NCBI RefSeq assembly: GCF_001646945.1
Contig: NZ_LUTV01000002.1
Span: forward strand, 477,289 to 516,036
Reading direction: 5' to 3'
Source of the DNA: Endozoicomonas ascidiicola
GTDB taxonomy: Bacteria > Pseudomonadota > Gammaproteobacteria > Pseudomonadales > Endozoicomonadaceae
DNA length: 38,748 nt
Shown: positions 14,471 to 35,147 of the stretch, one piece after another
How positions within the stretch are numbered: position 1 is the first letter of the stretch
How the letters are laid out: each line of letters begins with the position of its first letter
The notes under the pieces: generated by a model
What the model saw: only the letters and a program-made list of their open reading frames with translations
Databases searched by the model: none
What the model was told of the DNA's origin: nothing
Translations under genes and position numbers: made by a program

Positions 14471-17400
14471 TTATGGTTCAGAAGGTAAGTCAGCATTAGA
14501 ATCTTCACCTGTAGGCACTACAACATTAATCTTGCTGCCGTTACCATAAACGGCTCGGAAGCTAATATCTTCTAGCAACTGCTCTTCCGTATATCTGATA
14601 ACTAATGAACATGTTGAATTGCTAGCCAGAATGCCTGAACAATTGTTAGAAACCAGCTCCGTACCTTCTGGCAGCTCATAATCATACCTGACATCGTTGA
14701 CGGAATCAGGGGTTTGATTTGTCAACGTAATGACTACAACCTTATTATCTTTAAAGTCACCATTCACGTGTGTTCGCGAGTAATACTTTTGTTGTTCCTC
14801 TTTCTTTATATAACGATAATTTCCTTTAATCCCCAAGGTTCCAACGGCATCCAGGCTTATTGGATCAGCTGATTCATCCTCAGAATCATCCTTAATAAGA
14901 TCAGGCTCTGTTGGATCTGTTGGATCTGTTGGATCTGTTGGATCTGTTGGATCTGTTGGATCTGTTGGACCTGTTGGACCTGTTGGACCTGTTGGACCTG
15001 TTGGATCTGTTGGATCTGTTGGATCTGTTGGATCTGTTGGATCTGTTGGACCTGTTGGACCTGTTGGACCTGTTGGATCTGTTGGATCTGTTGGATCTGT
15101 TGGATCTACCGGAGGCTGTACTGGTGGAATTACCGGTGGCACTACTGGATCTGTTGGATCTGTTGGATCTACCGGAGGCTGTACTGGTGGAATTACCGGT
15201 GGCACTACTGGCGGCTCTACAGGTGGATCTACCGGACCTGGCTCAGGTACTGGTGGCAATTCCTCATAGGGCACATCTAAGAAAGCAGTGTACTCAGGGT
15301 CTAAATAATCCACCACATTATCTCTAAGCTCGAGATGATCCCTGAAAATAAAAGGATACCGATATCTTTGTTTTGGTGGCGGAGTATAAGTATTAACATC
15401 CGGCCCAGTGGTCGTAATGGTTTGACTCGGATCTGCTTCATATTTACCAGGTGTGCCTGGAACTAACTCCAATGTGATCTTCGTCTTATCTGGCTCTGCC
15501 GGAGTTTGTACAACAATGTCTTTTGTAATTTCTGGTTTGTAATTTGGATTAGGTACATCAACGTCTTTGTAAGTAGCCGGCTTGTAAGGTGTCACAACAT
15601 CCACTACATCTTTATACTCCGCTGGCTCAGCCTTCTGCACTACCTTCTCGACATCTTTATACTCCGCTGGCTCGGCCTTCTGAACAACTCTTTCTACATC
15701 TCTATAGACCGCATCCTTAGCATCTTCGACCTTAACACTCCGAATTTCTTTTTCTGTTTCTTTATGAGAACCCGTTTCTTTTAGTGTTAATTTTTTAAAC
15801 TCATCAAATGAAATGAGATTTTTATCAGAATCCAGCTTCTTCTTAATATTGGCTAAATCTCTATCCGTCATTTTATCTTTAAGCAGACCATCAGATCTTA
15901 ATGATTCAATAGCCTTAGCAAGCTTTTCACCCGTCTCTTTATCAACCGTTTTTTTACTCTTGTCAACTGGCGCCGAGTTTTGGTTGCTGGCTTGAGCGTT
16001 TTTCTTTGCTGCAGCAAGTACTTCACTATTCTGATTTTTTGCTCCCGTTGCAGACTTACCATCTATTTTTCTTGTTGATAGCTTTCCTTGTAACTTAGCG
16101 GTTGCTACTGTTGTTTTATTATTGTTTTTATCAGTGGAAGATACCGTCTTTAATTTAACATCTCCAACCTGGTTCTTAGCCAAGTTCTCCCGAAGCTCTT
16201 TCACGCTTTTACCAGCTGAACTGTTATTCAGCTTTTTGAGGGAATCTTTCCCGCCAGCAATTTTAAAGGTTCTGGCTGCCATATAAATATCATTATTGAC
16301 ATATAGTGCACGTTGCTCTTCTGGCAGGGTTTCAAGATATTTCTTCTTATCATCTTCAAATGCTTGATTTCCTTTCTTAGTTGCAGTCGATGATCTGTAT
16401 AAAGCCTCAAGATTGTTAATTTCCTTAGCTTGGGCTTTATCCAAAACTTTATTGGACTTTAACGTTGTCACAACATCATTTAGCGCCCTTGTTTGTGCGG
16501 CTCTTAATGTAACATCACCATCATCTTTTCTGACAGCCGCGCTCTGTCCTGCTTTATTAGTCGTTGAATACGCTCCCCCACCAAGGGCTGGATCTTTTGA
16601 TTCACTGCTTACATTGGGAGCCTCAAATGCGTAGTCTTTAACTTCAACTTCTTTCTCAAACTCTTGATCTTCATATTTTGCAGGTTTTGCATCTTCAACT
16701 AACTCTTTCACTGTTTCCTTTTTTTCAAGAACTTCAGCTTTCACTAATTCTTTCACTGTTTCCTTTTTCTCAGGCACTGCAGCTTTAACCAGTTCTTGCC
16801 TTGTTTTGGTGACTTCAGGCTGTTCAGGCTGGTCCTCGACTGTTTTCTTTATTGTTTTCGGGCCTGATTCAGCTTGCACCACTACGGTTTGAGTTGTAGA
16901 TGTCGCAGGCTTGCCCGGAGTGGTTTGCTTAACTGCTTGTACTGTCGGCTTTTTCCCCGGTACAAATTTAACAGCATAAGGGTCTCGCTTAGAAGATGTT
17001 GCCCCTGCTGCAAGCCCCGCAGCGCCTTTCTTCTGTTTATCTCCTGTTTTTTCTACAGGGCCTGTGTAAAGACCAAAACTAGTAGACTCTTTAACATTTG
17101 TTCTACTCAAACCAACAACAGATTTTGCATTAATTTCCAATGAACCTGTGCCCGCTCCGGCAGATCTTGCAAGGCCATTTCCGCCACTGCCAACGTTAAA
17201 TTCAGCCTCCTGATTGACGATAGTTTCTGCATTTAATTTCACCTTACCAGAAAAGCTAGTGGCGATGCCTTGCTGCAAATTATTTTCATCGCTATCCATT
17301 TTAAAACCAAGCTTGAAACCTGACGTAGTACCACCGGCAACTTCGAAGTTGGAAGACGTTGTCAGATCACTCGTTTGATCAACATCTTTAGCTTCCAGCA

Positions 17401-20400
17401 TGTTGATATTGTTTTTTGCATCTAAGTTGATAAATCCTGCATCAGCTGCCTGGCTATTCGCACTTATAGCAGTGCCTTCAAGATTTATATTATTGCCAGA
17501 ATTGATATTTATGTTACCACCAGCCGAATTCAGTATTGCTACATTATTTTTGACTGAGTTGCCGCTCGATCTATCCATATCATTGGATCCTCCCACAGAA
17601 GTATAATCTGCAGACCCTTGGATACTTGTTGTTGTATTTGTTGATAAAGATGAGCGGTTCGAAAAATCTTTGGCTGATTCAAAGGTAACGTCTCCCCCAG
17701 AGTCAATATTGATATCTTCACCCGCACCTATACCTGTACCAACAAACCTCGCAGAGCCCTCTGTGTTAATATTTATACTGCCGCCCGCCCCCATAAAACC
17801 TGCTGTAGCTGTAGAGCTGAAGGAGCTACTTTGAGATGTTGCAACAGAAGTTTCATTAGAAATTTCGACATCAACAATTGTGGAGCCAACACCAACACCT
17901 GCTGTTGTCGTTGTATCCACATCCAGAGAGTTAGAAGACTCTATCTGAATACTTCTAGCTTCCGCAAAGTTCAGTGAACCGGCATTTATATTAATATCAC
18001 CGCCGCTATTCATCTCGGTGCCTAACAGGTTTGCATCGTCTGTTATATTAAAATTGATATCGCCTCCTGCTTGATACGATGCGGTCTTGGCGGTCATGGA
18101 TAAACTACTTGAGCTTTCCTCATTACGCTTAACCTGCACCTTCCCGCCAACTGAAGCACCACCAGATGCACCTGCCATAGCCCCTGTTGTTCCTACAGTC
18201 GCTTCTGCACCACCGTAAGCTTCCAGTGAAACGCCAACCCGCACTTCAGTATTATCTTTGTTGAATGTACTGGACTCAGTGTCGTACAGTTCTAACTCTG
18301 TATAAGATTTGCCAGTGACATTGACATCTCCTCCGGCCTCAAGCTCTGTTCCCTGGACAACGATGGCATTTCCTGCTTTACGATTCACATTCCCACCTGC
18401 CTTAATCATTGAGGCAACACCAGTGGTTTTCTTGTAAGTAGATTGTTGATTTGTATTCTTAACTCTGCCACCCACACTAACACTTGTTCCAGCATCAGCA
18501 CTAGCAGAAGCCCCACCACCAATGGCGCTAACCCCGCCTTCTGCCTGCGCACTACCACTGGCGTCCACGGATAAATATACGCCTACAGACTTTTTTGATG
18601 ATGTGCTTGTTTCCGCATAGGTGTCTTCAGCTGCCATTTCATAGAGATCACCACCGGCATCCAGGCTCACATCATTTGATGCGATAATATTTGCAGCCTG
18701 TAATGTGATGTCATTATTCGAAGTAATATTAACGTTAGTAGCAGCTATCTGACTTCCTCTATGAGTGACTTTTGTTTTGGTGTCGGTTTGCTTCGTAACT
18801 GTTAGGAAATCTAATGTAACATCCGATTTTGCATCGGCACTTGCTGAAGCACCGCCAAATGCTGAACTAACATCTTGATTACCAGAAGCTTCTGCATTTG
18901 CATTTGCATCGTTTTTATTTTCTACCATCCAACCGAGCGTAGTAGTATCGCCCGTTGACATGGAAATATCTTCATTCCTACCGGCAAGAATATTAACTTC
19001 ATCCGCTTCAATATTAATATCGCCACCGGCACCCAAGTTAGAACCAACGGTAGTAAGATCACCCTCTGCTTTTAAATTAAGGCTTCCTCCAAAATTCAGA
19101 TTACTGGCTTTACTTCTAGCGGCATATTTGTACTGGTTTTCTTTCGTGTTCTGCATAGCCGCAAAACCGATTGAGCCGGTTTGAGAGGCACTTGCGCCTG
19201 CAGAAGCCTTCCCCTCGTTTCCAGTACCATTTAGATTTCCTCCACCCGTTGCCCCCGCATAGGTACTGGCTCCGCCCGTTGATGATGGACCCAAAAATTT
19301 ACCAAAGGTGGTTGTTTCTGTCGTTGTATCTACTTCGTTATAATTAATGCCATCAAGAACGTAGATATTATTCGCCGCATCTAAATTCCCATCTCCACCG
19401 GCGGTAATATCTGAACCACGAATAACAATATCATTCCCGGCACTAACATTTAGATTTCCACCAAAATTCAAGTCAGAACCAACACTGGTACCTTTTTTGG
19501 TTTTGGTCGTGGTTTTTGACGTACCCCATATTCCTCCCCCTACACCAAAGCCGGAGTTCTCTGTGTAGGAATAGGATTCAACTTTATCAACGACATCAAC
19601 GACGAGGAAATCATTAGCTGCATCGATATCAGCATTATTACCAACATTAACGTCGGTTCCTGCAAGAATGATGTCATTACCTGAGGACATGGATAAATCA
19701 TTACCCACTTCAAGCCCTGATTTCACATTCTTGGTAACTGTCATGTTATTGTGGGCGGTACCCGTTTTTGTCACTAACTCTATGGTACTAAAGGTAATAT
19801 CCCCGCCTGAGGTAAGGTCGGCATCATTTGTAGCCTTTATCTTTGCACCCACAACGGTTATATCATTTTTCGCATTTAGTGATACGTTGTTTCCTGATAC
19901 AACAGCTTCGGCGCCTGTTAACTGTTTCAGTACTCCATCTTCTGTATAGGTTTCTATAACAATATCGCCACCAGTGCTTTCCAGAGATACATTTTCCGCT
20001 GTAATCACGCCACTTGTATTGATAATGTCATTTTTAGCAGTAATGCTCAGATTCTCATTGGCTTTTATTGTGCCACCTGTATTTTTAAGACTATCAAGAT
20101 CCGCAACAATATTATTTGCGGAAATAGTAGCACCGGAATTAACCAGATTTTTTGTGTTGTTCGATAGGTATACCTTGGGTGCCAGAATTTTCTCACCATT
20201 AACTTCGATAGAAACTACCCATACAATATCTTCGGTTAAGTTCGCTAGCTGATCTGGCGTTGGCTCCTTACCATATTGGAATCCAAGTTGATCCGCTTCT
20301 TCAGCACCTTTCTCTATTAAATGACGGAACTGATCTCTCCGGCTGACACCCGCATAAAGTAGATTAGAACCGGTCAAATCAATAAGCTGCTGTTGGATCA

Positions 20401-23400
20401 GGAAGGATTCATAATTAGCATCTCCCAATCTTCTAAGCCTTGTTTCCGGGCTATATCCATATCTATCTTCAAAATATTTAGTCGAGATGCCCATAGACCC
20501 AGTTGTATACAGTGGGTTTGTTTCAACCAAGTAATCAGAAGAAAGATTCGAAGCAAATACAAAATATCCATTCGGGTTGGAGGGTAGTAGCGTGCTAAGG
20601 TTTGGAAGATTCAATTGGCTGATTTCGATACTATTAGTATAGTTAGGCTGATTAATGGAACCGGTGACAACCTTCGAAATTGAATTGGAATTTTTTGCAC
20701 CTCCCTCAATAGCACTACCAACTGCTACCATATTCACTTGAGCACCATTTTGAGATCCTGACTCTGATGATGACGTTGAATATTGAGAGCCTTTATTATC
20801 CAACGTAAAGCCAGAGGCTACTAATGTACCAGCAAAGAGGCCTGATGGCGCATCGTAAACAATTCTTGTACTGTTTAGTGTTCTGTCTACGAAAGTCTCA
20901 TTATATGTTTCCCAACTCTGACAAAGAGTATCAAAGACTGTACAGATCTGAGATCTGGAAACAGCATAACGATCTGTATAGGTTCGCTCCTCAAGATCAC
21001 CAGAAAGATTACTAAATACAGCCCCAGAATTTCCAGTAATCGTCAGTATGTTCTCTGCTGAAATAATAGAAGAAAGATTATTTACCCGGTTAAAGTTACC
21101 TATATTGACATTCCTTGCAGTAATCGTCGGATAAAAATTCATTGGAGCCGGTGTTGGATACGACTCAGTCTCAACCACCTTATCAGAACGATACCAGGTA
21201 GTTCGATATCTGTTACCGCCCCTACCTGCATCATAACCAAGATTATCCCTGTGGCTGGAAGCCTCACTCCCTCCCGTTGTATTACTCGATGTATTGAAGG
21301 AGTTATAAACGACCGGGTTGATATTATCAATGTCTGCAGCACTAATTGAGAGATTATTGATCGCATTAATCACACTTCGGTTGATTAAGACATTACTAGT
21401 CAAAGAGATATTGCCATCTGAATGAATATCCCCGGCAGCTGCAGTAACACCATCAGAGTTATTTTCGATTAGCCCAGTGAAATTCAATGTTATATTAGCT
21501 GATGCGAAAATGAGCCCTTGGTTATATAAATCAGCACCACTTAAGCTCAGATTATTTAGCGCAGATATGGCAGAGGTATCAGTATTATTTATATTGTTTG
21601 CATTAAGAGTCAGATTATATTTTGAAAGTATTAAACCATCATTTTCAAGATTACTACTGACATCAATAACAACCTCTCCAGCCCCAGAGTTAGCTCCAAT
21701 AATTCGAGAGGTGCTATTACTAAGGTTAAACCTAGATAGGGTTAAATTCATATCAGACTCTGAAGTAATCAATGCATCATTCTGCATATCTAAAGATGAG
21801 ACATCGATATCAACTATATTTGCTGTCACATTTGAATCATCAAGAATATTTAATACACCACTATTACTACCACCATCACCAATTCGAACTTCACTATCAG
21901 ATAGAATATCACCTGAATTATTCAATGTGTTAGCGAAAATAATATCGAGGTTATCATCGGATTGAATGATCCCTTCATTATCTAAAGAGTCAGTTATTGT
22001 TATTTCAGACTCACCATCAGAGTTAATTGTTCCAGAATTCTGAATACGATCATTTGATAACGTCAGGCTTCCCTGCGCTGTCAATTCGCCACTTGTATTA
22101 ACTGTCAACATATTTGAATTCAAAATTATATTTTGACTCGACCGCAGTATATTCAGGGTTAACTGATCAGATAAATCAATATCTACATTACCGGTAGTCT
22201 CTATCCGGCCTGAGATAGTGGCATTATTACCTGATAGCGATAATGACGCAGAAAATATGTCGGATGCATTCTCAAGATCCCTAAAATCAATGGACATTAA
22301 ACCTTGTGATTGAATTGTTCCCGAGTTAGTGACATCATTTGTAGCTGTTATTGCAGAATCTCCACCCGAATATATACTTCCTGAGTTCTGAACAGTGTTA
22401 TTTGTTAGCGTTAGTTGACCCTGGGCTAATAATTCTCCATCTTCCGATACTGTAAGTTCATCTGAATTTATGGATATATCCTGATCTGAACGGACTTGAT
22501 TTAGAGTTAAATCATCCATAAGATCAATATCGATATTTCCTGACGCTGCAATTTCTCCAGATATAGTTGCATTATTACCTGACAATGCCAGTTCTGACAA
22601 AGATGATATTTCTGAATTATTTTCAAGACCACTAAACTCAACATACATTGATCCTTCAGACTGAATGCTACCTGAGTTGCTGATCGTATTTACTGCAACT
22701 ATTGTAGTATCACCTTCTGAAAATACTGCCCCTCTATTGTCAATATCATTATGGGAAAGTATTATTTGACCTTCTGCCGTTAATTCACCATCTTGAGATA
22801 TTGTCAAATTATTAGATTCCAGATTAATATTCTGACTTGTTTTTAATATATTCAAAGTCAACTGATCTGTTAACTCAATATCGATATCACCGGTTGACTC
22901 TATCCTGCCATCAGAAATCAAATCATCACCTGTAAGATTCAAATTTGATATAGAGAAAATTTCTGAAGTGTTATTAAGACTATCAAAGTCAATATCCATA
23001 ATGCCCATTGACTGAATAGTTCCTGAGTTAGTGATAGTATTAATCGTGGTTATTTCAGTTTGATCACCAGAGTATATTATTCCCGAATTATCAATATTGA
23101 TCTGGGAAAGTGTAAGTTGCCCTTCTGCAGCTATCTCTCCATCTTCTATAACTGTCAAACTATTTGAATTTACTGCTATATTCTGAGCAGATTTTATGAT
23201 GTTTAGGGTCAATGCATCTGTGAGATCGATATTTATAGATCCAGTCGCTTTAACCTCTCCATTTAGAACTGCATTCTCACCTGTTAATTCAATATCAGAC
23301 AATGAGGCAATTTCTGCTTCGTTATTAAGATTATTAACCTCTAAAGTCATAACATCATTAGACTGGATATCATTTCTGTTATCAAAAGACTCTGCCGTTA

Positions 23401-24910
23401 TATTAATCATGCCACCTTCGGCACTAATAATCCCTTCATTATCCAAAGCGTTACCAGCTTCAATACTGACATCACCACTGACGCTTTTTATAAAACTATC
23501 ATCACCTTCTGTTCCTGATGATCTCGATAGATTCACATTACTGGATACACTTTGTACTGATATATCGCCATCAGCCTCAACATTGAAGTCGGTTAAATTT
23601 ACGTCCCCAGAATTTGAAACAACGATTACGGAGTCAGCGACCACTTTTATATCATAAGAATCAATATCATTATTACTTTCTATATTGATTTCACCATCTG
23701 TCGCCTTCCATATAGAGCTCGACGTAGATATATCATCATTTGTCGTTATTCTGATCGAACCAGTTTCAGCGATTCGTTGAACCTCACTGGTGTTTTCATC
23801 AGTCAGGCTATTCGATTCAATTTCAATATCTGTTCCAGCATAAATAGTTGAATTATTTAATGTCAAATCACTGTTTTCAGCGTTGATTATGATTCTTTCT
23901 TCCGCTGAGATACCAGAATCAGAACTAGTAATAATGACCTGATCAGCATTTGCTCCTGCATCAATACGAACATCTTTAGCACTTCGTATTTTTGAGTTTA
24001 ATTCAACTCTACCATCTGCTGTGATTACAAAATCATCTGCACTGGATGCCGCATTTCCAAGAATTTTTACACCAACACCATCTTCTGTGGCTTTAAATGT
24101 AATGGTACCTGCATGCATACCTCCAAATACGGTTGAATCTATTCCATATTCAGGTGCATCTGTATCTCCATCCTGCTCTATAATTTCATCGGTCTCATAA
24201 TTCCATTCATTGGTTCCAGAGATCAGCTGAAGTTCGCCATTGGGTTCACGCTCTCCATCACCATCGCTATCATCTTTGTCCATAACAATATCGCCATCGA
24301 CAACAATCCCTCTTGCGACAATATTGAATTTCTGCTGGTTGGTGAGATCTGCGCCATCTCTTCCAAAATGGATATTTCCACCATTAACTTCAAAACCATA
24401 GAGTTTCCCAGAGCCATCTATTATGGGGTTACCCGTGGTCAAGCTGACTTTATTGGTATTTATAAACCCACAACCATTACAAGTGATTCCATTAGGGTTA
24501 GCTATGATGACATCTGCATTTCTCCCTACAACCTCGGTATAGCCTCTTAACTCACTTTTATTCGTAGTGATTACTTCATTTAAAATGATATCTGCTTGTC
24601 TATTTGAATATTGATTTCCGATAATGGAACCGGCCAATTTTGAAGGGTGTATGATACCTGAAGCGGTTGTGTTATTTAACACAACGCCAGTTGGCGTGAC
24701 ATTATAATCAAGAAATTTATTATGTGATAAGCCATGAGAGTTCGCTGTAGATATCTCAACAACTGTTGTACCATTAATACTTTGGTAAACATTTGTTGTT
24801 GAATCTGCAGAAACAACATCATTACTATATACAAGCCCAGCTTGCTGAGAAATCATAAATGTACATAGCAGTATATACGAGATTCCCTTTCTAACCGCCA
24901 GGGACAACAT
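14471..24910 (-). CDS. TpsA-type giant adhesin (filamentous haemagglutinin family) of two-partner secretion
   Basis: The 3,479-residue exoprotein would be exported by Sec, then by the adjacent TpsB. Signal peptide residues 1-29; TPS secretion domain about 30-270 with the diagnostic NPNGI (138-142) and the Cys144/Cys147 pair. Inside it lies an Asp-rich insertion (MDKDDSDGDG, 210-219). A beta-helical shaft follows: a 117-residue degenerate repeat block (about 500-1010), then filamentous-haemagglutinin repeats rich in GGD and Ala-Ser-Gly. The C-terminal third has charged 15-residue repeats (EKKETVKELV, AEPAEYKDV), a proline-rich PV/PP stretch, more than 20 DPT/GPT triplets, and a terminal domain with a C-(11)-C pair near residue 3390. 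No VENN motif or recognised toxin tail, so adhesin is preferred over contact-dependent inhibition. Start is supported by AAGGAG 8 nt upstream. Confidence 0.93.
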   Translation of the reverse strand: MLSLAVRKGISYILLCTFMISQQAGLVYSNDVVSADSTTNVYQSINGTTVVEISTANSHGLSHNKFLDYNVTPTGVVLNNTTASGIIHPSKLAGSIIGNQYSNRQADIILNEVITTNKSELRGYTEVVGRNADVIIANPNGITCNGCGFINTNKVSLTTGNPIIDGSGKLYGFEVNGGNIHFGRDGADLTNQQKFNIVARGIVVDGDIVMDKDDSDGDGEREPNGELQLISGTNEWNYETDEIIEQDGDTDAPEYGIDSTVFGGMHAGTITFKATEDGVGVKILGNAASSADDFVITADGRVELNSKIRSAKDVRIDAGANADQVIITSSDSGISAEERIIINAENSDLTLNNSTIYAGTDIEIESNSLTDENTSEVQRIAETGSIRITTNDDISTSSSIWKATDGEINIESNNDIDSYDIKVVADSVIVVSNSGDVNLTDFNVEADGDISVQSVSSNVNLSRSSGTEGDDSFIKSVSGDVSIEAGNALDNEGIISAEGGMINITAESFDNRNDIQSNDVMTLEVNNLNNEAEIASLSDIELTGENAVLNGEVKATGSINIDLTDALTLNIIKSAQNIAVNSNSLTVIEDGEIAAEGQLTLSQINIDNSGIIYSGDQTEITTINTITNSGTIQSMGIMDIDFDSLNNTSEIFSISNLNLTGDDLISDGRIESTGDIDIELTDQLTLNILKTSQNINLESNNLTISQDGELTAEGQIILSHNDIDNRGAVFSEGDTTIVAVNTISNSGSIQSEGSMYVEFSGLENNSEISSLSELALSGNNATISGEIAASGNIDIDLMDDLTLNQVRSDQDISINSDELTVSEDGELLAQGQLTLTNNTVQNSGSIYSGGDSAITATNDVTNSGTIQSQGLMSIDFRDLENASDIFSASLSLSGNNATISGRIETTGNVDIDLSDQLTLNILRSSQNIILNSNMLTVNTSGELTAQGSLTLSNDRIQNSGTINSDGESEITITDSLDNEGIIQSDDNLDIIFANTLNNSGDILSDSEVRIGDGGSNSGVLNILDDSNVTANIVDIDVSSLDMQNDALITSESDMNLTLSRFNLSNSTSRIIGANSGAGEVVIDVSSNLENDGLILSKYNLTLNANNINNTDTSAISALNNLSLSGADLYNQGLIFASANITLNFTGLIENNSDGVTAAAGDIHSDGNISLTSNVLINRSVINAINNLSISAADIDNINPVVYNSFNTSSNTTGGSEASSHRDNLGYDAGRGGNRYRTTWYRSDKVVETESYPTPAPMNFYPTITARNVNIGNFNRVNNLSSIISAENILTITGNSGAVFSNLSGDLEERTYTDRYAVSRSQICTVFDTLCQSWETYNETFVDRTLNSTRIVYDAPSGLFAGTLVASGFTLDNKGSQYSTSSSESGSQNGAQVNMVAVGSAIEGGAKNSNSISKVVTGSINQPNYTNSIEISQLNLPNLSTLLPSNPNGYFVFASNLSSDYLVETNPLYTTGSMGISTKYFEDRYGYSPETRLRRLGDANYESFLIQQQLIDLTGSNLLYAGVSRRDQFRHLIEKGAEEADQLGFQYGKEPTPDQLANLTEDIVWVVSIEVNGEKILAPKVYLSNNTKNLVNSGATISANNIVADLDSLKNTGGTIKANENLSITAKNDIINTSGVITAENVSLESTGGDIVIETYTEDGVLKQLTGAEAVVSGNNVSLNAKNDITVVGAKIKATNDADLTSGGDITFSTIELVTKTGTAHNNMTVTKNVKSGLEVGNDLSMSSGNDIILAGTDVNVGNNADIDAANDFLVVDVVDKVESYSYTENSGFGVGGGIWGTSKTTTKTKKGTSVGSDLNFGGNLNVSAGNDIVIRGSDITAGGDGNLDAANNIYVLDGINYNEVDTTTETTTFGKFLGPSSTGGASTYAGATGGGNLNGTGNEGKASAGASASQTGSIGFAAMQNTKENQYKYAARSKASNLNFGGSLNLKAEGDLTTVGSNLGAGGDINIEADEVNILAGRNEDISMSTGDTTTLGWMVENKNDANANAEASGNQDVSSAFGGASASADAKSDVTLDFLTVTKQTDTKTKVTHRGSQIAATNVNITSNNDITLQAANIIASNDVSLDAGGDLYEMAAEDTYAETSTSSKKSVGVYLSVDASGSAQAEGGVSAIGGGASASADAGTSVSVGGRVKNTNQQSTYKKTTGVASMIKAGGNVNRKAGNAIVVQGTELEAGGDVNVTGKSYTELELYDTESSTFNKDNTEVRVGVSLEAYGGAEATVGTTGAMAGASGGASVGGKVQVKRNEESSSSLSMTAKTASYQAGGDINFNITDDANLLGTEMNSGGDININAGSLNFAEARSIQIESSNSLDVDTTTTAGVGVGSTIVDVEISNETSVATSQSSSFSSTATAGFMGAGGSININTEGSARFVGTGIGAGEDINIDSGGDVTFESAKDFSNRSSLSTNTTTSIQGSADYTSVGGSNDMDRSSGNSVKNNVAILNSAGGNININSGNNINLEGTAISANSQAADAGFINLDAKNNINMLEAKDVDQTSDLTTSSNFEVAGGTTSGFKLGFKMDSDENNLQQGIATSFSGKVKLNAETIVNQEAEFNVGSGGNGLARSAGAGTGSLEINAKSVVGLSRTNVKESTSFGLYTGPVEKTGDKQKKGAAGLAAGATSSKRDPYAVKFVPGKKPTVQAVKQTTPGKPATSTTQTVVVQAESGPKTIKKTVEDQPEQPEVTKTRQELVKAAVPEKKETVKELVKAEVLEKKETVKELVEDAKPAKYEDQEFEKEVEVKDYAFEAPNVSSESKDPALGGGAYSTTNKAGQSAAVRKDDGDVTLRAAQTRALNDVVTTLKSNKVLDKAQAKEINNLEALYRSSTATKKGNQAFEDDKKKYLETLPEEQRALYVNNDIYMAARTFKIAGGKDSLKKLNNSSAGKSVKELRENLAKNQVGDVKLKTVSSTDKNNNKTTVATAKLQGKLSTRKIDGKSATGAKNQNSEVLAAAKKNAQASNQNSAPVDKSKKTVDKETGEKLAKAIESLRSDGLLKDKMTDRDLANIKKKLDSDKNLISFDEFKKLTLKETGSHKETEKEIRSVKVEDAKDAVYRDVERVVQKAEPAEYKDVEKVVQKAEPAEYKDVVDVVTPYKPATYKDVDVPNPNYKPEITKDIVVQTPAEPDKTKITLELVPGTPGKYEADPSQTITTTGPDVNTYTPPPKQRYRYPFIFRDHLELRDNVVDYLDPEYTAFLDVPYEELPPVPEPGPVDPPVEPPVVPPVIPPVQPPVDPTDPTDPVVPPVIPPVQPPVDPTDPTDPTDPTGPTGPTGPTDPTDPTDPTDPTDPTGPTGPTGPTGPTDPTDPTDPTDPTDPTDPTEPDLIKDDSEDESADPISLDAVGTLGIKGNYRYIKKEEQQKYYSRTHVNGDFKDNKVVVITLTNQTPDSVNDVRYDYELPEGTELVSNNCSGILASNSTCSLVIRYTEEQLLEDISFRAVYGNGSKINVVVPTGEDSNADLPSEP
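14906..15108 (-). repeat. 9-bp tandem repeat encoding DPT/GPT triplets in tpsA
   Basis: More than twenty copies of GTTGGATCT or GTTGGACCT (plus-strand reading). The two forms alternate in blocks: the T form gives Asp-Pro-Thr and the C form gives Gly-Pro-Thr. Copy-number change would stay in frame and alter stalk length. An apparent plus-strand frame of Leu-Asp repeats here is only a shadow. Confidence 0.95.
15102..15210 (-). repeat. 63-bp direct repeat in the proline-rich part of tpsA
   Basis: A segment beginning GGATCTACCGGAGGCTG recurs 63 bp further along (15102 and 15165), each followed by matching sequence of about 45 bp, encoding PVVPPVIPPVQPP-type residues. It adjoins the 9-bp array and shares its GGATCTGTT unit. 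Confidence 0.85.
15606..15712 (-). repeat. 45-bp tandem repeat in tpsA
   Basis: Two full copies (15606-15650, 15651-15695) and the start of a third encode QKAEPAEYKDVEKVV-like 15-mers. A related 15-residue repeat (EKKETVKELVKAEVL) occurs near 16690-16790. Both are Lys/Glu-rich and probably form a charged spacer. Confidence 0.8.
21890..23390 (-). repeat. Degenerate ~351-bp repeats (117 residues) in the tpsA shaft
   Basis: About four copies of a unit containing AEGQLTLS, then NSGTIQS, then LTGDD/LSGNN, TGDIDIEL and LTLNILKTSQN recur at roughly 350-bp steps (for instance near 23120, 22770, 22420 and 22070). Each unit probably forms several coils of the beta-helix. Divergence between copies is high, so the duplication is not recent. 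Confidence 0.8.
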
Positions 24911-24922
24911 GATATCTACTCC

Positions 24923-26659
24923 TTAAATATCAAGATTTAATCGCCACCAGAATTGACCACTTTCCTCCGGTAGAATACTTGGTTTATTTAACGGAAAATC
25001 ATAGGAGAAAGTGGCTGCCAGCTTTTTCCATAAGACTGTTAAACCTAAAGATCCACCAGAAAGCCATCCATCCAGGCTATTATTTAAATCGTATCTATTC
25101 TCAACCCAACCAATATCATATCCGGCATTTATTCTTGTGTTTATATCTTGCCATTTAATTTTAAATGGATTATTCCAAGTCAATTCATTTCTAATGTAGC
25201 TTCCGTTATCTCCTGATAATGAGTTTTCAACATAGCCACGAACGCTATACCTAGATCCAATCGAAATCCTCTGAGAAGATGGAAGATTATCAAAAGCGTA
25301 TTGTCCGCTAATGCTACTACTTAATGTCAAACCTCGGAGCATAAAGTCAAGATTTTGTATGTAAGATATTGTTCCTTCAATTTTACTAAACAAGTTGACC
25401 GGGAAATTAAAGGGCAGATTATGGATGGCTTCTTCTGCACCAAATAATGATAGACCTCTGGAAAAATCCAGTGAAAAAGAAATTGGGTTGTTAAACAACC
25501 TACTATTAAACGCGGTGCCGACAGTAGCCGTTGTGGTATCTTTGCTACTCACAGCCAAGTAAGAGCCGTTTAAATAATTCTTCCCTCTATTAAATTTTAG
25601 CCTAAGGTATGTGTTTATTATTGTATCCGCATTACGGTACATCACTCTATCCACCGTAACACCCGCATTTATGCTCTCACCAGAGCTCACAAGTACTGCA
25701 CCCGATGGCGTCAAAAGATCACTCTCATATTTTGATTTTGAGAATGTAAATGTATGTGTAAAAAATCCAAAGGGAACCACTAGTGCCAATGAATCACTGA
25801 TGGAGTCTCCAGGGTTATTAACATGGAGTTCTGAAATAGATTCACGATGGGTATATGTTAAAATATCATTGATTCCTATAAAGTTATCTGCAGTAATAGT
25901 GGTTGCGCCTTGCACTTTTCCCGTCGATCGTGAACCATGATTATCAATTGAAAAATTAAGGTGTATTGGATAACTCTTTTTGTTTTTTACCACGACAACA
26001 CTATCACCAGGATTTTCACCCGATTCTATTTCCATTGTTGCTCTGTTAGATCTTTGTTTATTGGCTTGATTAATACCTTGTTCTATTTTTGTAAGCTCTA
26101 ATGTTTTTCCTTTCATAAATGGAAACAAAGACGGTAAATAGATGCTTTTCTTTCCTCCATCCTCAAGAATGATATCTGATATTATGCCATCCTGAACTCG
26201 TAGCTTTAGGGTTCCAGCGGTCAAGTTTTGGGCTTCCAAATATATTCTGGTTGTCGAAAACCCTTCACTAATAAACCAGTTAACAACCAAAGACATTATG
26301 GATTCTATGTCAATCACTGTCAGGCATTTATTGAGGTATTCTGCATTGATATCTTCTTTAAAGCTTAGTGGTATTCTATCATCACCTTCATACTCTATTT
26401 CGGTAATATTTATACAATTTCCATCACCACTATCCTTTTTCATTTCTTTTTCATCAACCTTAAACTCAAGCTTATTAAATCCACCTTTATTTCCGATACC
26501 TCTTTCTATATCTTCTTTTACCTGATCCTCAAGTTGCCGCTGTGTTTCATTGATATTTTTTTGAACAGCCCTGATATCTTCAGCATCCGTCGCGAATGCA
26601 GAAGGGAAATATAAAAGACTTAATAATAAAACCTCTTTCCTAAGAAGAACCGCTATCAT
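24923..26659 (-). CDS. TpsB outer-membrane transporter (ShlB/FhaC family)
   Basis: Outer-membrane partner that exports TpsA. Residues 1-23 form a signal peptide (ending SAFA). A coiled, charged linker (25-75) is followed by a POTRA domain (about 82-165, starting NCINITEIEYEGDD, with a Cys82-Cys112 pair) and then a beta-barrel of the ShlB type. The conserved SVRGY motif near residue 472 that lies in the channel is present, and the protein ends in WWRLNLDI, a typical terminal barrel strand. Length 578 is normal. It precedes tpsA by 12 bp, and its stop adjoins the tpsA ribosome site, so the two form one operon. A TAAGGA site lies about 10 nt before the ATG. Confidence 0.94.
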   Translation of the reverse strand: MIAVLLRKEVLLLSLLYFPSAFATDAEDIRAVQKNINETQRQLEDQVKEDIERGIGNKGGFNKLEFKVDEKEMKKDSGDGNCINITEIEYEGDDRIPLSFKEDINAEYLNKCLTVIDIESIMSLVVNWFISEGFSTTRIYLEAQNLTAGTLKLRVQDGIISDIILEDGGKKSIYLPSLFPFMKGKTLELTKIEQGINQANKQRSNRATMEIESGENPGDSVVVVKNKKSYPIHLNFSIDNHGSRSTGKVQGATTITADNFIGINDILTYTHRESISELHVNNPGDSISDSLALVVPFGFFTHTFTFSKSKYESDLLTPSGAVLVSSGESINAGVTVDRVMYRNADTIINTYLRLKFNRGKNYLNGSYLAVSSKDTTTATVGTAFNSRLFNNPISFSLDFSRGLSLFGAEEAIHNLPFNFPVNLFSKIEGTISYIQNLDFMLRGLTLSSSISGQYAFDNLPSSQRISIGSRYSVRGYVENSLSGDNGSYIRNELTWNNPFKIKWQDINTRINAGYDIGWVENRYDLNNSLDGWLSGGSLGLTVLWKKLAATFSYDFPLNKPSILPEESGQFWWRLNLDI

Positions 26660-27149: not shown

Positions 27150-27674
27150 ATGCAATATACCCTACAGATTTCCTACACCATTACAGGTAAGGCTCAGAAC
27201 CGCATTAATGCGTTGATGGCCAAGTACAGTCCGAAGCATACAGCCGTTATCTGGATCGCTTCTCTATCCTGCCTTTGCGTTCCACTTTTGGTTTTCAAGA
27301 ACAATCTCAGTTCTATCATGCTTTCCGGCTTGTTTGGGTCTGCATTTATTACCTTCTGGATTTTGAACCTCGGGCTCCGTTACGCAGTACACAAACGCTT
27401 CAGCCTTCACTACCAACCGGAACTTGAACTTGAAACCCGTATTCTGCAGCTGGAGGATAATGGCATCCGTATCGATTCATCGCTGCTCAAACCAGCGTTT
27501 CGACCTTATCGACAGATCAAAGCCATTGTCGTTGAGGATAATATCATCATAATTTCTGGCAAAAATGGCTGGATTGAGATGATTCCAAGAGACTGTATTA
27601 TCGAAGGAAATTCCGGTTTTCTTCTGGAGCAGATTAGTCAAAAGTCAGGAAAAAGTGCTAAAAACCCAAATTGA
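27150..27674 (+). CDS. YcxB-like small membrane protein
   Basis: The 174-residue protein begins with a beta-rich MQYTLQISYTI segment, has two transmembrane helices (about residues 31-50 and 56-76) and a C-terminal PH-like YcxB domain: LQLEDNGIRIDSS, RPYRQIKAIVVEDNIIIISGKNG, and IPRDCI. Proteins with this architecture are membrane-attached with unknown function. The ATG lacks a clear ribosome site. It lies 52 bp upstream of the broken cystatin-like lipoprotein gene on the same strand; they may have formed one unit. Confidence 0.75.
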   Translation: MQYTLQISYTITGKAQNRINALMAKYSPKHTAVIWIASLSCLCVPLLVFKNNLSSIMLSGLFGSAFITFWILNLGLRYAVHKRFSLHYQPELELETRILQLEDNGIRIDSSLLKPAFRPYRQIKAIVVEDNIIIISGKNGWIEMIPRDCIIEGNSGFLLEQISQKSGKSAKNPN

Positions 27675-27726
27675 CAACCATTGCTCATCTACACTTACTG
27701 CCTGACTTCCTGACCCAGAGGGCAAT

Positions 27727-28083
27727 ATGTATAGATCAATCGCTACCATTTTAGTGTGCTTGTTGCTCATTAACTGCTCTTTAACTCAAACCAGAAGAGC
27801 TTCAAGCCTCTCAGGCTCCGCGGATCATTGACACGCGCTTGAGCCTGAAAAGGAAAGAATATCTCTGGCACAGTTTGCGCTCAGAGACCAACCTGCTAAT
27901 ACCTTATTAAGAGTCACTAACGCCCAATTTCAAGCAATTTATGGGACTTATTATCAGGTCAACCTACAGAGCCGAACTAGTGGCTTTTGGCTGGCAGAGC
28001 TGTATCGACGTCCAAGTGGGGAATTGACATTACTTGAGCTACGGCCAGACAATCATTTCTACCAGCCCCAAGGCAACCCTTGA
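27727..28083 (+). pseudogene. Cystatin-like lipoprotein gene interrupted by one in-frame TGA
   Basis: An AGAGGG site 6 nt upstream introduces ATG at 27727. The frame encodes MYRSIATILVCLLLINC, a lipoprotein signal with the lipid Cys at residue 17, then meets TGA at 27829-27831 (codon 35). The same frame continues open for 83 codons to TGA at 28081-28083. That second part reads like a cystatin: LAQFALRD matches the LARFAV-type helix, QAIYG aligns with the QxVxG inhibitory loop, GTYYQVNLQ follows as in cystatins, and LYRRPSGELTLLEL resembles the closing strands. Expected original role: surface inhibitor of papain-like cysteine proteases. One nonsense codon with no frameshift implies recent inactivation, readthrough or a sequencing error. 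Its 3' end overlaps the M2 peptidase remnant by 25 bp on the opposite strand. Confidence 0.7.
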
Positions 28084-28226
28084 TTCTGTTCATCAAGATA
28101 AGCTTGCAGTGGCACAAAATATTCCAGCATTGCTGATGCATCAAATACTTCCTTTTCTGTGAAGTCAGCATAGATCTCCTGCCATGGTAGGCTAGTTCCC
28201 GTTTCCAACGTATCACCAAATGATAA
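28059..28226 (-). pseudogene. C-terminal remnant of an M2-family (ACE-like) peptidase
   Basis: A 55-codon open stretch with no start codon ends in TAG (28061-28059). It reads LETGTSLPWQEIY, then FDASAMLEYFVPLQAYL, then DEQNQG, and closes with WGW. This matches the extreme C-terminus of bacterial angiotensin-converting-enzyme-like dipeptidyl carboxypeptidases (SRPW, then SASAML-YF-PL, then EQN, ending GW). The catalytic HEXXH part and everything upstream is missing, so it is a truncated relic. A stop codon at 28229-28227 and the Fur-box sequence mark the junction. Confidence 0.7.
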
Positions 28227-33581: not shown

Positions 33582-35147
33582 ATGGTTGCTAAAACTGCTA
33601 TTTCTCCGCCCTCATTTAGGAATATCTTGAATAGGTCTGATGCTGTAGATTATCAGCGGCTATCTAAACAACGAAATAAATCCTGCCAACTTGGAAATTA
33701 CAAAGTCACTTTGATACACAGTGGGCTTCAAAGTTCAGCATCTATAAAAGTTAATGTGGTAAATACACAAACACCAAAAAACATTCTCAAACGACTCACA
33801 AAAGCCATATCTGATTTTTTTATCCGGCTAATGGATAAGGACTGCAGCTGTTTTATACCAAGAGCACACCAACTCCAAAAGCACATTGAAAAAAAATTAA
33901 ACACAACATCAATTCGTATCAATTCACATGCACTAAAAGATATCAAAGCAACACCAGGTTCCCCAAAGATAGGGCCTGATACTCGGGTTTCTAACCCGGG
34001 TTATGATTTAGATCCAGATGAAGGCTATGAGTCTGATCAAGAGGTTTCACTTTTTGAAACCATTGGCTTCAAAAATTTTGGCAGTACCTGTTTTGCCAAT
34101 AGCTGCCTGAAAGCACTAATAGGCACTTTACCGCCTGAATATTTTCAGGCGCTTAAGAACAAAAGGTTCCAAAATGACGAATCTGGCCAAAGAGTAAGAG
34201 ATGCTTTTTTGAAGCTTCATGAAAAAGCAACCAAAAGCAAAGACAGAATAATAAGCTCGCAACTAGAGAAACTGTTTCAGGAATGTTTCAACTATAAGGA
34301 TATGAATGGAAGCAAACCTTTTGCCTATATATTAAATAATAATGCAAATAACATCCGGCAGCATGATGTCCAAGAATTTATGTCTGAGCTTATGCTGGTG
34401 TTAAAAACAAGGGATGACCCTCAATTTAGAATTGAACGGTCTCCAAGAATGCATGTTATCGCAGGAAAACAACACCATTATTCAAAAAGCGCTGTTCAGC
34501 ATAATGCTGAACATGACGTTGCGACGACATTGCAGATTCCGCTTAGCAGTAAAAAAAATCAGTCAGTACAAGGAAACCTCGATAGTGAGTTAGTAGACCT
34601 CGAAGCGATGGATGAATATACATTTAATTCTGAAGACTGGCCAAACACCACTCTTTGTATTCATAAAGGAACGCTGGCGGATTTTGAACGGATTAAAGCA
34701 ACTAAAGATGGCCATAAAATCACTAATATAGATCAGGATATTAAAGTTGCCAGAAAAGATCAGTTAATCGTAGATTCTGATAAATTTCGTTTCCTTACGA
34801 TTCATCTTGGTGTCTTTCGTTGGATGCAGGGTTCCAACGACCCACAAAAATATCTACCAGAGCCAATTGCTTTGAAAAAGAGCTTGGGTGATATTTTAAA
34901 ACTACCGGTGACCGACAAGAATGGAAATCAACGGACACTGTCTTTCCGCCTTAAAAGTGCCTGTATGCATATGGGTGGGAAATCAGCTAGCTCAGGGCAT
35001 TATGTTGCAGCCATTAATCATGCTAATGGTAAAGAGCCAGAGCAATGGAGGCTGCACAGCGACAGCCACATCCACAATATAAAACACCCCGCCCAAGCAA
35101 CAGGGATCGGTGACCCTTACCTACTATTTTATGAGCGAATCGAATAA
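33582..35147 (+). CDS. Ubiquitin-specific protease (peptidase C19) domain protein, probable host-directed effector
   Basis: Residues about 158-519 form a USP/UCH catalytic domain as in eukaryotic deubiquitinases. The Cys box is GFKNFGSTCFANSCLKAL with Cys170 and oxyanion Asn165; the QHDVQEFMSELM motif follows; the His box is SSGHYVAAINH with His473; Asp494 lies in WRLHSDSHIH, and the domain closes with PYLLFYER. All triad positions are filled, so activity is plausible. The first 157 residues are basic and of unknown family, possibly for secretion or targeting. No signal peptide. Bacteria lack ubiquitin, so the expected target is in a eukaryotic host; type III delivery is inferred. The gene is AT-rich and sits between ilvY and ilvH, in an otherwise core biosynthetic locus, which suggests acquisition by transfer. 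Confidence 0.92.
   Translation: MVAKTAISPPSFRNILNRSDAVDYQRLSKQRNKSCQLGNYKVTLIHSGLQSSASIKVNVVNTQTPKNILKRLTKAISDFFIRLMDKDCSCFIPRAHQLQKHIEKKLNTTSIRINSHALKDIKATPGSPKIGPDTRVSNPGYDLDPDEGYESDQEVSLFETIGFKNFGSTCFANSCLKALIGTLPPEYFQALKNKRFQNDESGQRVRDAFLKLHEKATKSKDRIISSQLEKLFQECFNYKDMNGSKPFAYILNNNANNIRQHDVQEFMSELMLVLKTRDDPQFRIERSPRMHVIAGKQHHYSKSAVQHNAEHDVATTLQIPLSSKKNQSVQGNLDSELVDLEAMDEYTFNSEDWPNTTLCIHKGTLADFERIKATKDGHKITNIDQDIKVARKDQLIVDSDKFRFLTIHLGVFRWMQGSNDPQKYLPEPIALKKSLGDILKLPVTDKNGNQRTLSFRLKSACMHMGGKSASSGHYVAAINHANGKEPEQWRLHSDSHIHNIKHPAQATGIGDPYLLFYERIE

Follow-up and report, generated by a model that had tools for sequence, protein, structure and literature searches.

A probable recent pseudogene of a cystatin-superfamily lipoprotein in Endozoicomonas ascidiicola

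The window analyzed here, a 38,748-nucleotide stretch of the Endozoicomonas ascidiicola genome (6.13 Mb, 36 contigs), carries a small broken gene at positions 27727-28083 of the forward strand. Sequence comparisons and predicted structures indicate that it very probably became a pseudogene recently, having encoded a cystatin-superfamily lipoprotein of Endozoicomonas, hereafter type A: a small, apparently membrane-anchored relative of the protease inhibitors known from animals and plants. Observed were homology, an in-frame stop, whole copies elsewhere and, in the closest relative (G017), a lesion that differs from the window's.

The frame was made of 34 codons, a TGA at codon 35 (27829-27831), 83 open codons and a terminal TGA (28081-28083). 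A ribosome-binding-site-like AGAGGG (27717-27722) lay four bases ahead of the ATG. The leader (27727-27828) read as a signal-peptide-like stretch up to LLINC, followed by 17 residues, and the cystatin domain with the gene's own stop occupied 27832-28083, all on the plus strand. Within the domain, QAIYG (27931-27945) occupied the position at which a 26-row alignment (A3) has the first inhibitory hairpin, QxVxG, with Ile replacing Val. The start, ribosome site, single TGA and 83 open codons, as well as LLINC, LAQFAL, QAIYG and GTYYQVNL, were all as a sequence-only reading of the window had claimed. No restart codon (ATG, GTG or TTG) was found upstream of codon 65 in the post-stop piece. The lipoprotein signal proposed by the same reading held in part: LLINC is present, but Asn precedes the Cys, unlike the LSAC found in the leaders of six whole relatives, and this unusual leader was shared by the window and G017. 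LLINC appears to depart from the textbook lipobox (PROSITE pattern); Pfam LPAM_1 gave no match on the 34-residue leader of the window and matched 5 of the 26 rows of A3.

The window piece was matched in eight of 37 genomes of the family, its own included, all from the same genus. Protein identity over the 83 post-stop codons reached 93% with G017, and 41-46% over 68-73 residues with six further genomes. This identity across relatives, together with fewer non-synonymous differences than expected under neutrality (see below), marks the piece at sequence level as more than a chance open frame. The same gene was found at seven loci in named records, six with Endozoicomonas in the title (including E. 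elysicola, E. cretensis and E. acroporae) and one with Salinisphaera. Among 274 genomes of the class, query A2 matched only the window's own genome and one other (G096).

A gene for a 174-residue protein, directly upstream of the broken frame, was used as a syntenic marker. Beside it, a whole cystatin gene was present in 6 of the 12 genus genomes (G007, G008, G009, G011, G015 and G016), so that the intact homologue which the earlier reading had proposed to look for does exist, at the same place. The window gene combines a disabling lesion with whole orthologues in this position elsewhere, as expected of a pseudogene. The gene order helicase, 174-residue protein, cystatin and glutathione peroxidase was seen in G008, G009, G015 and G016. 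At the same place, the cystatin gene of the window is interrupted by the stop, the G017 copy is split, and only the final 26 codons remain in G012; no copy was found in G010, G013 and G014 among the 12 genomes compared. The locus appears to decay repeatedly. The insert splitting the G017 copy contained in-frame stops, had inverted ends and was itself a repeat of about 126 bases that was matched in 8 of the 12 genus genomes. Since the lesions of the window and G017 differ, at least two arose apart. The odd LLINC leader shared by the two copies makes an earlier loss conceivable, and function may have been lost in their ancestor before both lesions.

The repeat itself (L003:1346-1475 in G017; ends TATACCC...GGGTATA) was dispersed, with at least 42 matches in the window's genome and at least 40 in G017. 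Other genomes held at least 44 (G011), 37 (G008) and 29 (G016) matches.

Cystatin homology was reached by sequence profile through the relatives and not from the window piece by itself. What would have refuted the sequence-only reading, the lack of any cystatin match by profile or structure and of an intact homologue, was contradicted by the results: alone, the 83-residue piece had no match at E<=1 in Pfam or NCBIfam, PF00031 (cystatin) included, but the profile of the relatives matched cystatins, as did the predicted fold. Four weak phmmer matches of the window piece (E 0.09 to 1.5), the first three to cystatins or a cystatin-type scaffold, were suggestive only. PF00031 was matched at E<=1 by 23 of the 26 rows of A3, compared with 2 of 26 for PF23780, and profile-profile comparison and predicted fold likewise pointed to cystatins. 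Two models, predicted from an alignment with other cystatin relatives and from one without them, displayed a helix wrapped by an antiparallel beta-sheet and superposed on cystatins; the superposition (VIA-align 2) was a second look rather than a full structure search, and monellin, which has the same fold, ranked about level with cystatins. Structural alignments with eukaryotic cystatins (potato multicystatin 4lzi, tick 3l0r, 8r28) gave 16-28% identity; type A differs from them by the absence of the PW hairpin and by its bacterial lipoprotein-like leader.

In the first hairpin, Q and G were invariant in all 26 rows, and the third place was Val in 18 and Ile in 8, all eight of type A, so that QxIxG was found in 8 of the 9 type A rows. 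By analogy with cystatins, QAIYG is a near fit and the place of PW no fit. The N-terminal Gly segment read GGW (L004, L005), SGW (L007-L009) or SQW (L006), and the corresponding stretch in the window falls at and before the TGA. By profile and predicted fold, the gene belongs to the cystatin superfamily, in agreement with the identity first proposed, and is not filed as a proven inhibitor. Matches to PF23780, DUF7796 and SecG were weak, came from single proteins, stayed below cut-off and were contradicted by the profile.

Over the 83 codons, the comparison of the window with G017 gave 8 synonymous and 8 non-synonymous differences (omega 0.28, below neutral, P = 0.018). Three pairs of whole relatives, two of which share G015, had omega values of 0, 0.13 and 0.13. 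Elsewhere between the window's genome and G017, it was 0.14 for the 174-residue gene, 0 for a second cystatin-like gene (type B, described below) and 0.50 for the tail of a neighboring M2 metallopeptidase gene. These counts, which are small, suggest constraint in the past and perhaps some slackening.

Several observations weigh against a recently dead cystatin gene. The 83 codons still look constrained, which fits either a recent break or a gene still in use, and the comparison covered one genome per species, leaving room for a sequencing error or a strain allele. No type A row reached the cut-off of PF00031: the matches had E values of 0.028 to 0.12, and three of the nine rows, the window piece among them, gave no match at all. 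In two rows PF23780 (S-AdoMet lyase) scored better than PF00031 (E 0.0063 and 0.00069), also below cut-off. The second hairpin, RRPSGE in the window and DPYGK or DPHGQ in relatives, retains Pro only and lacks PW, which is why the gene is placed in the superfamily rather than among proven inhibitors.

The earlier reading had offered a recent pseudogene, a strain allele or readthrough. The first is favored because the lesion that breaks the copy of the closest relative is not the same one, the second is inseparable from it with one genome per species, and the third found no support. A sequencing error or strain-specific nonsense allele, in a species whose gene is otherwise whole, is unlikely: the single stop, the open remaining frame and the visible constraint would suit it, but another lesion splits the copy of G017, a remnant of 26 codons is left in G012, three genomes yielded no copy and the window's convergent M2 neighbor is truncated as well. 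That the TGA is read through or recoded, yielding some full-length lipoprotein, is very improbable even though the codons behind the stop are constrained and a TGA followed by C, according to the sequence-only reading, may be a leaky context; G017 is broken otherwise, the post-stop piece offers no start before its codon 65, and such recoding is not conserved because none of the six whole relatives carries an internal stop. That the frame is a chance one or another small lipoprotein is hardly credible, for profile, profile-profile comparison and predicted fold all lead to cystatins, and PF00031 far exceeds PF23780 across A3, against a window piece without Pfam or NCBIfam match and two intact relatives favoring PF23780 (16.9 and 20 bits, cut-off 28).

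A tree of the 26 rows placed type A in one separate clade (support 99/98, 100% of 200 bootstrap trees); the tree held no eukaryote sequences and carried a warning of long branches meeting, the type A branch among them. The window's own genome encoded an intact second cystatin-like lipoprotein, type B (L036, also L060; C34:3312-3593), with PGGW and QVVNG and a PF00031 match (E 2.5e-4) of 21.7 bits against a cut-off of 22.2. Over 112 codons it differed from the G017 copy by three synonymous and no non-synonymous changes. This gene and the type B loci of relatives (L025, L027-L030, L032-L035) showed a lipobox-like Cys and one cystatin domain. Type B has the canonical GGW and QxVxG; of the 12 genus genomes, 8 had a PF00031 score above cut-off, and the window's genome and G017 lay just under it. 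It was matched in 10 of the 12 genomes, with a short, weak match in G012 and none in G014. Type B was not one clade: the copies of the window's genome and G017 stood apart from the others, and L036 grouped with cystatins of a genus from another family, at modest support (90/83). At E<=0.001, PF00031 was detected in 8 of 398 genomes of the phylum, from three genera and all above cut-off, the window's genome falling just short; the PF00031 counts, in the phylum and in the genus alike, are blind to type A and are lower bounds.

The 174-residue gene (27150-27674, plus strand) was present in all 12 genus genomes and in none of 25 other genomes of the family; its best Pfam match (E 0.093) was below cut-off. 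On the other side, the tail of the convergent M2 metallopeptidase gene (28059-28211, minus strand; region to about 28215) kept 50 codons and a stop, the rest being missing here. In G017, which has about 1.95 kb more DNA here than the window, this ACE-like gene was open over 626 codons, and a 505-residue piece of its protein matched PF01401 (E 2.3e-209). A two-partner secretion pair (14471-26659, minus strand), consisting of a 3479-residue TPS/haemagglutinin-repeat protein and a ShlB-type partner, sits between the helicase and the 174-residue gene in the window. The helicase and the 174-residue gene were both seen in 9 of the relatives compared and are direct neighbors in 8 of these, the exception being G011, with a gap of about 740 bases. 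ShlB also lies beside the 174-residue gene in G017.

In relatives, the whole type A gene would yield a protein of 110-116 residues, presumably exported by its signal peptide and lipidated at the Cys of LSAC. Cystatins have three contact regions with the protease (PMC2784779). By analogy, the first hairpin (QxI/VxG) of the single predicted cystatin domain and the N-terminal segment would both enter the active-site cleft of papain-like proteases. In the window, translation would stop after 34 codons and no domain would be made. Peptidase_C1 and C13, the only two cysteine protease families searched, were not found in any of the 12 genus genomes; as a control, the same searches detected them in 3 and 1 of 14 genomes. 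An endogenous target of these families is unlikely, and, as the search of the genus found no papain-family protease, the most likely target belongs to the host or to other organisms in the environment. The narrow choice of families counts against this guess, as the window itself encodes a cysteine protease of another one (PF00443). The protein concerned (33582-35147, plus strand) has a eukaryote-type ubiquitin carboxyl-terminal hydrolase domain (E 1.4e-19).

Bacterial cystatins are a known kind, reported from Vibrio, Photobacterium and a few others by Kordis and Turk (2009, PMC2784779), who proposed that their targets are host proteases and that they serve as 'emergency inhibitors' when the host attacks by proteolysis. 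Type A resembles them as a cystatin domain of marine Gammaproteobacteria with the QxVxG place; it differs by its separate clade, its mostly QxIxG motif and the broken window copy, while other rows of the tree may include Vibrio. The word 'lipoprotein' is absent from the main text of that paper. Type A and type B are both cystatin-like lipoproteins of Endozoicomonas, type B being whole in the window's genome and canonical in GGW and QxVxG. Cip1 of Pseudomonas syringae (PMC5014320) is an example of a bacterial secreted protein that inhibits papain-like proteases of the host; it is chagasin-like and is set apart from type A by its described inhibitor family. In the limited open literature searched, no description of the type A clade, no mention of Endozoicomonas together with cystatin and no assay of a bacterial cystatin were found, and such accounts may be in print.

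The window copy is probably dead, by itself an ordinary case of genome erosion, which has been described for E. cretensis and E. montiporae (PMC4671022, PMC4781883). It is conceivable, at rather long odds, that a two-gene cystatin set shields Endozoicomonas from host lysosomal cathepsins and that gains and losses of type A follow the host or lifestyle, in which case the decayed copies of the window, G017 and G012 would record host changes. For a bacterium living inside animal cells, a means of inhibiting host cathepsins would be of direct use. Endozoicomonas, a genus of animal symbionts, has two cystatin-like lipoproteins, one of which has been lost repeatedly, and the search for papain-family proteases found none in it; it is a tractable genus for asking what bacterial cystatins do.
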